From Patiria pectinifera (lineage: Eukaryota; Echinodermata; Asteroidea; Valvatida; Asterinidae): a stretch of DNA of 64,000 bases. The stretch lies in contig CM057135.1 in the NCBI GenBank assembly GCA_029964075.1, positions 30,617,366 to 30,681,365 of the forward strand. The letters run 5' to 3'. The first letter of the stretch is position 1. Each line of letters opens with the position of its first letter. Both the position numbers and the translations under genes were made by a program. Positions 1 through 17,700 of the stretch are shown one piece after another. The notes beneath the pieces were generated by a model. The model saw only the letters and a program-made list of their open reading frames with translations, made no database searches and was not told where the DNA came from.

Positions 1-703
1 GGTTCAGCATTATTTCGTAGAAAATTCTATGGAAAAAACCTGATTTTTGACAGAGCTACGAGGGGGGTTGACCCCCAACCCCTCCGCTCCTGGTCTCGCG
101 TCTGATCTGTTCAGGGGGAAAATAAAAGGTATCAAATTCATTTGTACTCTTGTCATATTATTTGCCGTGTCGTTTGTAAGGACTAAAAAAAACACAAATA
201 GGTATAGTGTTAATGTCTTCCTTGCTAATTTTTTTTTTGGGGGGGGGGAGTCGCGATTGGGCTACTTGAAGTTATTCAATTAAGTAATTTATTTAATTTT
301 CATATTTTTTAAAACTTTTCTTTTCATATAGGACATTATACATATTCCAACAACATTATGTGGACATCATTGATGAGAAAACAAGTACGTATATAGGCCT
401 ACCGAGAGGTTCAACCCACGGCGGCATGCTTCACAACGCCGTGGGGAAAAAACAACCCTATGTTCAGCAAATCTGTGTTAGAGCCAACAGACGCGTTGGT
501 GATAATCGAGAAATGGGCTTCACCACTGCAGTCCCTGATGAAGGCCATCGATGTCCTATAAATCGTAACAAAATGCAATCTTCGTTAGTTAACATAACAT
601 TTTTGAACATGTTGTCGGAAATCGAGTCCTATTTAATTCTGAAGTAGTTAAACACCAAGTCATCAACATATATATATATTTAGACCATGATGTCCGTGAG
701 TTA

Positions 704-902
704 TCGTTCCGGTTTGCGGTAACACCATGTGGTAATAACTACTGCTTAGAAGATATTAGTTCTGAAAAGAACTTGTCCTGCTTATTATCAACTTTGCTAA
801 GTAGTTTTTTGTTCTGATAAGAACAGTCCTGCTGTAAGTTCTAACGAACTTGTCTTTGGTCTCAACGTTTCGACTAGCCTGCTCTAGTCATCGTCAGGAG
901 AC
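704..902 (-). mobile_element. 199-bp retroelement-like insertion ending in a hammerhead-like motif
   Basis: The 13-bp word TGTCCGTGAGTTA occurs at 691-703 and again at 903-915, so bases 704-902 look like an insertion with a perfect target-site duplication. On the - strand the element begins exactly with the 5' strand of helix I of a hammerhead-like fold. Three 6-bp hairpins with 4-nt loops lie further in, at 758-773, 810-825 and 836-851. Penelope-like elements and related retrozymes are known to carry hammerhead motifs, and a short 5'-truncated or non-autonomous copy of such an element is the best explanation. No coding capacity is present. The insertion is well supported; the family is inferred. 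Confidence 0.65.
859..902 (-). ncRNA. Hammerhead-ribozyme-like motif
   Basis: Read on the - strand, GTCTC (902-898) pairs with GAGAC (863-859) as helix I. Next come the core CTGACGA, helix II GACTAG/CTAGTC around a six-base loop, GAAA, and C-GTT, which gives a 2-bp helix III and the NUH cleavage triplet GUU. The order is that of a minimal type I hammerhead. One extra base (T) lies between the core A9 and helix II, so activity cannot be assumed. With so short a helix III, any cleavage would probably need a dimer or a tandem copy. Confidence 0.55.
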
Positions 903-1797
903 TGTGTCCGTGAGTTAATTAAATATAATTGAAAACCAAGTCATCAACATATATATTATTTTTAGAGCATCCCCCCTGTCTTGATTTGAGTTATATTTAA
1001 TTATGTAGTAATTGAAAACCAAGTCATCAACATATGTTTTTTTTTAACATGTTGTCTGGAGTCGAGTTATATTTAATTCTCAATTAATTGAACACCAAGT
1101 CATCATGATCCACTTATTATTGTCAGGTGCTCAAGGGAAACTTTGCAGATTCAATTTTAATCATTTCTTTCAAAATCGCATTTTAAAAAAGATCACTTCA
1201 AAACTAATGTAGTGTGATCAACGCTTTGCTTCAAAGTTTTAAGTTTAACAGTGTTCAAAAGTTTGCTGTTTGATGATGATGTTCAGTGTAATAAAATATT
1301 GAGAAAAAAACACGCCTCGCTTTAAAGGTACATGTATGACTTATTTAGGCATTCCGCAAACATCAACCATTAGTCAACAAAATTGAGCAAATCTATGCAA
1401 TATACATGTAGTACCCAACATGTGACTCTTCTTAGTAACCAATAATTAAGAAAATACTAAAAACCGAAACTTGTCAAAAATTTGATCATTTTTCGATTAA
1501 TGGCTTACCAACAATTGGTTCTTTACATTTTCCCAACTGATAGATGATTAAAAATAAAAACTGTCCCGTCTGCAATTTTACTCAGATTTTAGGTAAACGT
1601 GTTTGCCTAACGGCCGCTGGGCGTTCGAAAAATGTGGATGTTGACTATTGTACAAACGTTGGGTAAAAAGTTGGGCAAAATTGACCATTTGTTTGCTGTG
1701 TACCAAACGGTTTCTAGAACCTAAAACATAACCCGTACCTACGGAACAAAACCGTAATAACGGCGTGTCCCTGGGGCATTGTAGAATTATTAGCCAG

Positions 1798-12514: not shown

Positions 12515-14558
12515 TGTGATTTCAACCATACTTTGTTGTAGCACAGCATTTCGCATGTACTATTCCTCAACTTACCCGCCATGGTTGAACTCATATCACA
12601 TTGCAATCTACCACTATGCTTGATCCAGTTTAGTCCGGTTCCAACCCGCTCTGATTCCTGACCCATATTCCTCTCAGTCCACCCCCTCATGTTACACTCT
12701 GGAGCCCCCCCCCCCCCCATCATGACACCCCTCCCCCTGCAGTGCTGGCTGATGTATCTCCCTCCACAGACACTCCTTCCAAATCCTATAATTCCGATTG
12801 AAACGTTATGATCCCCTACCCTTCTCTTCGGCTGGATTTGCCGTTCTGATTTAATTGACATTTGACAAGCGTGCCTTTCCCAAGACCCTGTTTTCATCTT
12901 ATAGGATTGGAGAAAAGGAGATTCCCTCCGCATCAGTACCTTTTGACTAATTTCGGACTCTGACGTCTTTCTGAAAGAGGAAAGCGTGGACTGAATGCGG
13001 CAGTAGCATCCCAGATTCTGGACCAAATTAAGTTTGGTGTCCTCCAGTTACTTTCGGAATCACAATTGGCTTTGAGAAATACTGTTAAGTCAAACTAACA
13101 AGGGAATAGCGCGAGGAGCTTGCAGCAGTAAATAATTGAATCTTCAAGCACTTGTTTGCATTTGCCCCTTCTTGTATGCACCTGCCACTGCAGGTGACTA
13201 AGGTGAAATCTGAACTATGGTAAAGGAATGCATCTAAGGCTACAAATGAGCTTTGTTCTGGTAACACCTGTGCCATGAGTGTATTTCAAATGAGAAGAAT
13301 CTCAGAAAGTCATGAACTTGAGGCAGTGTGAAACTTACTGTTACATCGACCTTTATGTGACAATGGTGATGGTTGAAAATGAGGGGAAATGGTAGTTGGG
13401 GATGCCATTAGCAGTTGGAAAGAGGCCAGAGGGTGATAATGTTGATAATGGTATAACAGTGCTGAAGATATGGAGTGAAGTAGTTTGGCAATTAGGAGCA
13501 GTTTGAAATTGATAAGGAGGATGAAGGGTGATGAGGAGGAGTCTGATTATCACGTTAGTGGTGATAATGGCGGTGATGGAGTTAGTGATTGGTGATAACG
13601 ATGGTGGTGATGGTGGTGGTGTGCAGGATGTTGGTGGTGATGGAGGGGATGGTAATGGCGATGGTGATGGTGATTATTGTGAAGGTAATGGCAGTGATTA
13701 TTGGGAAAGTGATGGCGGTGATTATTGGGAAGGTGATGGCGGTGATGATCTTGATTATGGTGTTAGTTATGATAATGGTGGTGATGATGTTAAGGAAGAT
13801 GGTGGTGATGGAGGTTATAGTGGGGATTATGATGGCGATGGTGATTATTGGGAAGGTGATGGCGGTGATAATCTTGATTATGGTGTTGGGTAGGATAATG
13901 GTGGTGATGATGTTAAGGAAGATGGTGGTGATGGAGGTTATAGTGGGGATTATGATGGCGATGGTGATTATTGGGAAGGTGATGGCGTGATAATCTTGAT
14001 TATGGTGTTGGTTATGATAATGGTGGTGATGATGTTAAGGAAGATGGTGGTGATGGAGGTTATAGTGGGGATTATGATGGCGATGGTGATCTTCATTATG
14101 GTGTTGGGTAGGATTATGATGTTAAGGATGACGGTGGAGATGGAGGTTATAGTGGTGGTGATGGTGACGATTGTGAAGGTGATGGTGTTGATTATGGTGG
14201 TATTATGGTGATAATGATGGTCATAATGGTGATAACACCACCCTGATGAGGTTGATTGAAGTCATTAATTGTCGTGGTGACGATGGCTATGGTTAAAAAA
14301 CCTTGTTTCCATACATCGATGGAAATGGTAGTGATAAACCTATAGCTATTTTCTTCCAGAGTGTCATCATTAGCCACCTGTCAACGCTGATTAATAAAAC
14401 ATCACTGCTTGAGGCTCCTAATTGTACCATTCATTGTTAATGAGACATCGAACAGGTGCTGATCATAACGATTGGGTCGGGGTAACAATGAACTTTTCAT
14501 TCTTGCTCAAAGTCAAATTGCTTATAATATATCGAAGAGCAAATTAATTGAGTGATGA
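12515..14558 (-). other. gucy1b1: Probable 3' UTR of gucy1b
   Basis: Region between the stop codon and the first canonical poly(A) signal. It contains a C14 run (12705-12718) and the GAT/GGT-rich minisatellite. A 180-codon open frame at 12484-13026 on the - strand has no family resemblance and runs through the homopolymer, so it is treated as chance. Confidence 0.4.
13540..14230. repeat. GAT/GGT-rich minisatellite with a 123-bp higher-order unit
   Basis: The block is built from GATGGT-type hexamers. Within it a 123-bp unit starting GGTGATGGCG repeats at 13732, 13855 and 13978 with very few differences, followed by a shortened fourth copy to about 14210. The third copy has lost one G. On the + strand the first 121 codons read as an acidic Gly/Asp/Tyr-rich frame, but a TAG in the second copy ends it. 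I regard this as a repeat, not a gene. Confidence 0.85.
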
Positions 14559-14703: not shown

Positions 14704-17700
14704 CTGCAGAAAGTACACACACACACACACGAAAGTAACAACCTCGTCAATAACCTTGTTCCCGGGGGCAGGCATTTGTATCTTGCATGTAATACCCCTG
14801 GGTAGTGGATTGGAATGCGTAGGTCTCATTAGATTGTGATTGATAACAAGTCATTGGTAAGACGATACCTAGATAGTTGATTGACTTTTGGCACCATGCA
14901 CTGACTATGATGCCCTCATTCTTTAAAGATTATGAACATTATAGTACTTAGTAGTGCAAAATATTCTTGGAAAGTTAACTCTCAGCATTGTTACTTTGTG
15001 CTACTGCAATGATACACAGCCCATCACAACATGCCTGCACTTGTTCAATCCCATTTAGCGGTAGACATGAAATTGAAGAAAAAAAATAGCGATACCGCTG
15101 CGCAGTATTTTCATATCGGCCCAGAGAGGTGTATTCTTGGAAAGTTAACTCTCAGCATTGTTACTTTGTGCTGCTGTAATGATACACAGCCCATCACAAC
15201 ATGCCTGCACTTGTTCTATCCCATTTAGCGGTAGACATTAAATTGAAGGAAAAAAATAGCGATACCGCTGCGCAGTATTTTCATATCGGCCCGGAGAGGT
15301 GTTTTCCCCTATAGTATGGGCATGTAAGTGATACTGTGCGTTACCAACCCCTAATACTAAGTCAGGACAGTGCACTCTCTTAGTGGACAATGAATGTTCA
15401 AATTGAATTTCGGAGGCTTTCACGGCGGAAACATCGTTGCCATTTGGCGCAACTTAATAGATAATGTAAACCCACTTAGGGCGAAATTGGCAAGACGCTC
15501 TATGTGTATTGCCATGTACGCAAATCGCTGCCATGTACGCAGTATAGGTACATGAGGAGGTCGTTCAAATCAATATAACCAAACTTTCTTTCTTTCCTAT
15601 GGGCACTTAATACTCCTTCTATCCCCTTGGCGGTTGCTGAGATCCTTGTTTTGTTGGATAGAGGTATGTTTGGCAATGTCCTACCCATGTCTCATGTTTG
15701 TTTTCTCTGCTCCGGGTAAAAGCATACTCTCTTGAGACGGTGTCAGCTATGTATTATCTTGGTAAATAATTGAAGCGAGGCAGTGGCGTTGCGTGGTACT
15801 CGCATAGAGAAACGAGAATGGCGTGAATGCATTGTGGTATTGTATACATCAGAATTCTGTGAGACATTTTTATAGGCCTTAGGGACATTCAGAGTTTAAG
15901 TACACATTCTTGGAACTCGGAGACAATGTCCTGGGAAAACTTGGTAACTTCGCGCTACTGAAACACTGCAGTTCAGTACAATATAGTGCGTAGATGCTTT
16001 TCGGTATTCATTTTGCTCGGTCTTAAAGTTTCTTGAAATACCTTTCTTCAAATTGAAGACATGATGATGTCTTTTTTTTTGCTACATAAACAAGCTTTTG
16101 CCCGCAGCCCGTGCGACCGCACATTTATGCACGATTACTAAGAAGCCCCATGGTTACAAGTGTTCTAATAGATCCCAAATTTGATTTGGGATTCATTTAT
16201 TCATGGCTAGATCAATACCAAACGTTTGAGCTTTCCTTCCACTGAGAGCCCCGCGCAAGTTATTGCATTTTAAATGGGATCGAATTACTACAATATCAGC
16301 GTATATCATGTTATACGGAGACTTTGGTAACGTCTAGGGCCAGGGGTAAATCTAAGACAATAGTGATATGAGAGGATCTGTTATTGTTGCGTTTGTTTCA
16401 TGTAGGCATCTCCATAATATTGATTGGAATTGCATCGACTTGACAGGTACAACCTCACCGTAAAATTTGAAGCGCGCGTATCGCACTGTTCGCTCGAAAT
16501 ACCCGGCAGAAACGTGCGTGAAACACTCCCTGCGCGGTTAAACATGTTCAAAACAACCTTAAAGATATCCCCGAAGATGTTGGTCTAAAGGATGTGAGAG
16601 TTAAGCAGAAATTGCAAAATGCCTAAGAAAACAAACGAGCGAAGGGTTGTTGCAGTCGGGCAGAAGACTTGTGGGTGTGAATTCGGTGTAGAATGTTATC
16701 AATCGTTCGGCGCCAATTTCCACTCATGCAGAAGAAGCCGCGCGTAGAAATAAAACGAAAACACGGATTTCTGAAAGCCGTTTGAAATGCTGGAGGCTAT
16801 ATGCAAGTGGGTTGAAGGTTTCGGCTAAATCTTCCTTTCACATTGTGTGAATAAAAAGGTTTTAAGAAAGTGAATTCAGGGCATTGGACTGTCACATTGA
16901 ATGTGTACAGGTAAAGTATATAGCTACAATAAATATGACGTTAACAGAAGTTAAGCTGAAAAACATTCAAAAGACAATGAAAGTCGGTTAGAAAAACATG
17001 CCTGAGATCATGTGTCATCTTTAAAGTTCTATTTTATTTGTACAAGGCCCAACAACAGTAGCCATCTCTTATGCACGTTGAATACATCATGGCACTCGTC
17101 TGTCATTGAATACAGTGCAACTTAAATAAATCAATCCTTCTAGCGACACTTGATCCCTCGTCAATGATAAAATTATATTTTGCTCCGAGCACCGTGGGCG
17201 AAAATGATATCAAACAGCACACCTCGAGTCCACAAAAGCTTGAAATCGTAACGGCGTATATACAAGACTTTGGTATAGCTGTTCTGGGTTGTCAGGCACG
17301 GCTATCGGCACGAGCGTCGAGGGGCTGTGTTTTTGTTCCCGCTTCGTGTTGAAATTCAATGCCGGATCGATCCACGTAACGAAACTTGATCTGTTGTCCA
17401 GGACAGAATATGTGATTTTTTTCTCCACTCTCTTCCCCAAGTTGAAGGTTGTGTGGTCAGGCGTGTTTCTCGGCAGTCTATGGCCGCCCTGCTGTCCGTT
17501 ATGCAACGGACCGGCTGCATAGTCCGTCACCACCGTATCGACAGGGTGTATAGATCGGGGAGGTGCAGGGTTTCCAACTGACATAGATTCGGAGCGGGAT
17601 ATTGTGCTTTCCTGTTGGGTTTGTGTTGCCAAAGGATCTGGAAGGTTTGGCGGGAGTTACCGCACTTTCCTCGCTATTCTGTCGATATTGTGACCTTAGA

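Follow-up and report, generated by a model that had tools for sequence, protein, structure and literature searches.

Structure of the insertion

Within the 64,000-nt stretch of Patiria pectinifera DNA that we analyzed (hereafter, the window), a 13-bp direct repeat, TGTCCGTGAGTTA, brackets an insert of 201 bp at 704–904 (Table 1). Alignment with other members of its family gives a unit of 203 bp instead, because the TA at 702–703 fits the element and the repeat alike; the duplication measures 13 bp by direct-repeat search and 11 bp by a stricter script. Joining the flanks of the insert restores a unit of the ~76-bp tandem repeat that served as its target, and the restored unit aligns with its neighbors with an 11-nt gap. 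The original prediction had placed the duplication around an insert at 704–902; the 13-bp duplication stands, and the insert extends to 904. Judged from its sequence, the window copy, with a GC content of 0.40, is a solo terminal repeat (pLTR) with the short type of 3' end, from a Penelope-like element (PLE) with a minimal hammerhead, which is a known kind of element and agrees with the prediction of a short PLE copy bearing a minimal type I hammerhead. Element positions are counted along the minus strand, position 1 being window position 904 and position 203 window position 702.

Table 1 Features of the window insertion and its target
Feature	Position	Strand	Basis
Target-site duplication, left copy	691..703	.	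Direct repeat TGTCCGTGAGTTA
Target-site duplication, right copy	905..917	.	Direct repeat TGTCCGTGAGTTA
Solo pLTR unit of Penelope-like element	702..904	-	Family ends and flanks
"Short" 3' end ...GATA, one of the family's two alternative 3' ends	702..705	-	Flank comparison
~76-bp tandem repeat, the insertion target	915..1105; further copy 600-665	.	Repeat and joining of flanks
Minimal type I hammerhead ribozyme motif	859..902	-	Descriptor match with Markov control
Core CTGACGA	891..897	-	Sequence and descriptor
Additional T separating core from helix II	890..890	-	T in 48/48 aligned copies
Helix II (889-884 with 877-872) and loop	872..889	-	Descriptor; both-side pair changes in related family
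Predicted cleavage site GTT/GAGAC, between 864 and 863	863..864	-	5' ends of other copies

Copies across the genome and a reverse transcriptase ORF

We searched the host assembly (613.5 Mb in 1020 contigs) for further copies, as the original prediction had proposed. With window positions 640–960 as the query, the best 40 scored of 1266 first-look candidates gave 65 matches, and 46 of these, counting the window's own, were nearly complete and shared both of its ends, mostly at 97–100% identity. The pLTR measures 203–204 bp in the family, and an exact 22-mer of its 3' end occurs 617 times genome-wide (backward control, 0). Copies running past the ends, which the original prediction had reckoned against itself, were also found, upstream into an open reading frame (ORF) and downstream by a tail; since copies extend beyond both ends, the window insert is part of a larger element.

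We classed 40 places, namely the window and 39 fetched loci that cover the remaining matches; these are the best-scoring places, and full-length copies are hence over-represented among them. They comprised 19 copies that stand singly, 20 head-to-head pairs, and an array (L029) in which five units follow one another head to tail and which has a short duplication of its own. By their flanks, eight of the single copies run upstream into common body sequence (the script's own "body" label caught five), and the other 11 are solo, five with the short end and six with the tail end. All 11 solo copies end at element positions 1–4. Duplications of at least 8 bp flank 10 of the 11 solo copies, and among the 20 head-to-head pairs 11 have one.

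A body-side query, which yielded 127 first-look candidates against 1266 for the pLTR query, led to two loci in which an open reverse transcriptase (RT) frame ends ~26 nt upstream of the pLTR (L084 and L085; RVT_1 matches with E 1.3e-13 and 1e-13, respectively), and L086 shows the same arrangement by eye. Structure matches of the RT were weak, with telomerase RT among other RTs. The C-terminal part of the ORF product (P0001) reads, by eye, GVYRIPCSCGKVYIGETGR, a candidate for the GIY-YIG signature of PLEs; a Pfam search of the product gave no GIY-YIG match even at E 10. Among the fetched loci there was no complete pLTR-ORF-pLTR copy of this family, and the ORF copies found were 5'-truncated, with the ORF followed by the pLTR; we count this and the missing Pfam match against our preferred explanation. 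Candidate start codons stand ~130–170 nt downstream of the hammerhead. An ORF start at an ATG inside the pLTR (728–726) was considered but not retained, because in a related family the first ATG of the L096 frame lies in the tail. At two places (L048:4126-4578 and L087:1205-2534), the frame ahead of the pLTR includes ~23-aa repeats (QPTDTVERAGRSAGIPQHNAQ) that vary in number.

The hammerhead motif

Read on the minus strand from 902 to 859, the unit has the parts of a hammerhead in the predicted order (GTCTC, CTGACGA, T, GACTAG-AGCAGG-CTAGTC, GAAA, C, GTT, GAGAC). Our descriptor, which tolerated 0–2 extra bases ahead of helix II, matched once in the 64-kb window, and 50 order-1 Markov versions of the window together gave one match. 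The motif in the window has the core and helices I and II, no helix III, and one extra base. The proposed check against the Rfam hammerhead models came back negative: the whole window had no match at the gathering threshold, hence none to a hammerhead model, and 640–960 searched at E up to 10 had three matches, none of them a hammerhead. The minus strand of 850–906 folds at −17.1 kcal/mol (z −3.24), and its minimum-energy structure pairs part of the core and does not adopt the catalytic form.

The extra base between CTGANGA and helix II, which had been named as the main doubt about this fold, lost its weight on comparison: it is T in 48 of the 48 aligned copies that cover the position, and, by our reading, the RNA of an anole PLE in PMC11167929 has an extra U at the corresponding place. 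Some degraded copies differ at this position. In the best-scoring copies, substitutions numbered 6/1797 in helices I and II and the core, 3/288 in the loop, and 63/9216 in the rest. Copies within the window's family are too alike for covariation, and these counts do not demonstrate selection on the core; older copies often carry core changes.

A related PLE family (L096 and L098–L100), in which the RT is ~62% identical and 25 tail bases are identical, is more abundant than the window's family. Three of the six helix II pairs of L096 differ from those of the window on both sides, by reading. Its family has C at the position of the extra base and a core with GGAA in place of GAAA in all but three of the ~100 places listed, of 1009. 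This hammerhead-like motif, in L096 (C87:85400-86600) on the minus strand at ~400–450, may be active or may stand in another register.

Two 3' ends and head-to-head pairs

After ...GATA, copies continue either directly with target DNA or with CCGATACCCCACCATGCAAAGCCTCAAATC and a few further bases before target DNA begins, which makes a tail of ~35 nt. In 19 of the 20 head-to-head pairs there is one tail and one short end (binomial p 2e-5). The inverted partner ends before position 200 in three pairs (L023, L038, and L045), of which L045 is the sole exception to this pattern; without these three, 17 of 17 pairs have one end of each type. Because 19 of the 20 pairs carry one tail and one short end, we infer that each of two RT start sites would serve one DNA strand within an insertion. 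The anole Poseidon PLE PAc likewise has two adjacent internal RT start sites that match the tail, and both strands are cut and extended, with no apparent difference in start site between the strands in vitro (PMC11167929).

5' ends at the predicted cleavage site

The 5' ends of copies cluster at the position where the hammerhead is predicted to cut. A word that opens directly 3' of the predicted scissile bond, GAGACCAAAGACAAGTTC, has 500 occurrences genome-wide; extended by the six preceding bases it has 349, and by the twelve preceding bases 290, so that 151 places (30%) are lost at the first step and 59 at the second. We read 20 of the 151 first-step losses in list order, omitting five places of one C3 repeat and two known places, one of which has the hammerhead present with an insertion (C1:11489127) while the other starts at position 42 (C1:12073491, which is L109). 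Nine of the 20 had a changed hammerhead and 11 had no element sequence upstream. In 20 of the 59 second-step losses, also inspected in list order and including L107 and L087, 18 copies had a changed hammerhead, one copy was truncated (L165), and one had a duplicated junction (L172). Element sequence was thus missing upstream in 11/20 compared to 1/20 (Fisher p 0.0012, and the same with L122 and L123 counted once). By extrapolation, ~80 copies begin at the cleavage site and ~3 in the next six bases, with independent events being fewer: the starts are not all independent, as the shared upstream sequence of L122 and L123 and the five of the 151 lost places within one larger C3 repeat show.

At the 11 cleavage-site starts, no bases match in seven, two match in three, and three match in one, and the 11 copies have 10 different upstream sequences, with L122 and L123 having one in common. 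L101, L109, and L111 also start at the predicted cleavage site. We also read 39 sites at which the 3'-end word is listed singly, chosen nearly in list order and regardless of their 5' ends (L102–L120 and L141–L160). Of these, three copies start at position 42 (L109, L111, and L144, the last being the same place as L129), four start at positions 1–5, five run into the body, and the rest start elsewhere or beyond the stretch read. L160 starts at 46–47, where a stop ahead of helix I would fall. The 5' junctions of L110, L120, and L145 contain a duplicated hammerhead core, as if the enzyme had jumped on its template.

That many copies start where the cut is predicted makes cleaved RNA their probable template, and their starting point suggests that the ribozyme is functional in the cell. 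The excess at the cleavage site is clear in the window's family, and cleavage would be its likely but not proven cause. The 5' end of the window copy itself lies 41 nt upstream of the predicted site and was therefore not set by cleavage; judged by that end, it is a copy made from uncleaved RNA. The original claim that the position of the ribozyme defines the terminus therefore fails for the window copy but seemingly holds for a share of the others. If cleavage is indeed the cause, these ends would be a genomic record, with perhaps one in ten to one in six of the copies extending to this region starting at the base after the scissile bond. Our literature search turned up no earlier description of insertions that end where a PLE hammerhead cleaves; the first publications on these hammerheads lay outside its scope, and we make no claim of priority.

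In the related family, 921 of 1297 occurrences of the corresponding word keep the six bases upstream of the site, which is a loss of 29% compared to 30% in the window's family. CpG sites lie in these six bases, and three copies that we examined all keep them.

Proposed origin of the copies and alternatives

We consider it very probable that the insertion is a solo PLE pLTR that was made when reverse transcription started at an internal site on cleaved or uncleaved RNA. Transcription of the PLE would begin near element positions 1–3, at an element start whose TCAGTC is presumably initiator-like. The PLE protein would then nick target DNA and begin reverse transcription within the RNA, either at the pLTR/ORF junction (position 203, the short site) or ~35 nt beyond it (the tail site). 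Where the junction closest to the 5' end of the RNA is used, the cDNA would hold the pLTR alone, and its integration would leave a duplication of 8–13 bp, as at the window copy. The hammerhead at the 5' end of the RNA could remove the first 41 nt, if it is catalytic as its motif suggests, and cleaved and uncleaved RNAs would both be copied, the window copy stemming from the latter. The L029 array may stem from template jumping, from the 5' end of one RNA to the start site of the next. The combined proposal that the PLE hammerhead is active in vivo, that its cleaved product is a regular template, and that within a single insertion each DNA strand uses a different one of the two RT start sites goes further, and we favor it with some reservation.

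One alternative is a non-LTR retrozyme, which would be non-autonomous and would multiply through RNA that cleaves itself and is circularized. In its size, its type I hammerhead, and its GC content (0.40) the unit resembles the ~170–400-nt animal retrozymes of PMC7229834, and a retrozyme would account for the five head-to-tail units of L029 with their own short duplication. It is nevertheless very unlikely: the exact unit-to-unit junction word occurs four times, all in L029, against 617 exact 3' ends; the 11 solo copies end at positions 1–4 and not at the cleavage site; copies run on into the RT ORF; and the hammerhead has no helix III, as described for PLEs in PMC7761336. A specific version, in which the 203 bp are a retrozyme circle opened at one point, was rejected on the flanks: these contain body sequence or the tail, and tandem units occur in one array. 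A formerly complete PLE whose two pLTRs recombined, in the way that solo LTRs form, would likewise leave one pLTR between duplications. We rate this as unlikely, if conceivable for the window copy itself, because it leaves unexplained both the tail and short ends of solo copies and the inverted partners in half of the 40 places; moreover, pLTR ends are abundant (617), and body-side candidates number 127 against 1266 for the pLTR. That the hammerhead is a chance fold in an unrelated repeat would fit with the missing Rfam match, yet we regard it as extremely improbable given the single descriptor match in the window against one in 50 Markov copies, a pLTR location and an extra base like those of published PLE hammerheads, and the compensatory helix II changes read in the related family.

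The step from internally primed PLE copies to cleaved templates has a rival of its own, which bears on the 5' ends at position 42 alone: the RT could have stopped at the folded hammerhead, or microhomology or duplication at the DNA level could have produced these ends. The start of L160 at 46–47, the upstream sequence common to L122 and L123, and the similar drop in the related family with its odd core (921/1297) are in line with such an origin, whereas the fall of the start on the first base after the scissile bond, the 10 upstream sequences in 11 copies, and the lack of any matching base in seven of the 11 speak for cleavage. We therefore regard this origin as possible but doubtful.

Comparison with known systems

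Close structural parallels are found in the Penelope elements of Adineta vaga, for which the main text of PMC3846280 describes a pLTR of ~200 bp (218 bp in one case), truncated inverted pLTRs, solo pLTRs, duplications of 8–10 bp (a 9-bp TSD in one case), and a ~31-bp tail on one inverted pLTR. Unlike here, a hammerhead goes unmentioned in that main text (0 occurrences), and several of the solo pLTRs of A. vaga lack a duplication, whereas 10 of 11 have one in P. pectinifera. Animal non-LTR retrozymes are also short units with a type I hammerhead, but PMC7229834 describes them as tandem repeats, while the family described here has one array, and longer copies with an RT ORF.

The RNA of the anole PAc element shares the single extra U between core and helix II, by reading, but there the U belongs to the start codon, which the hammerhead overlaps, whereas here the start codons are candidates well downstream of it. 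In PMC11167929, no read ends at the cleavage site were detected in anole and cleavage was not needed in vitro, and we count both against our preferred explanation of PLE copies made from cleaved as well as uncleaved RNA; in P. pectinifera, copies do start at that site. With hundreds of copies in one genome, cleavage and start-site use would become readable from the ends of insertions, and a direct test on RNA is made straightforward.

Other repeats and PLE families

A third PLE family, ~36% identical, has many RT matches in open frames of up to ~900 aa (e.g., C14:47489835-47490830), and may have been active recently. PLE ORF fragments without a pLTR stand beside other open frames in L094 and L095, as if inside another repeat. 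On C3, five pLTR ends lie ~3.85 kb apart, with a last step of 5.5 kb (C3:17025884-17042958, including L101). We rejected these sites as tandem full elements, since L101 is stop-rich and has no long ORF after the tail; the insertion there seems to be carried along within a tandem repeat of larger unit size. In the window itself, further tandem repeats are present at 13669–14090 and 14962–15306, with unit lengths of 24 bp (88% matches), 123 bp (97%), and 170 bp (96%).
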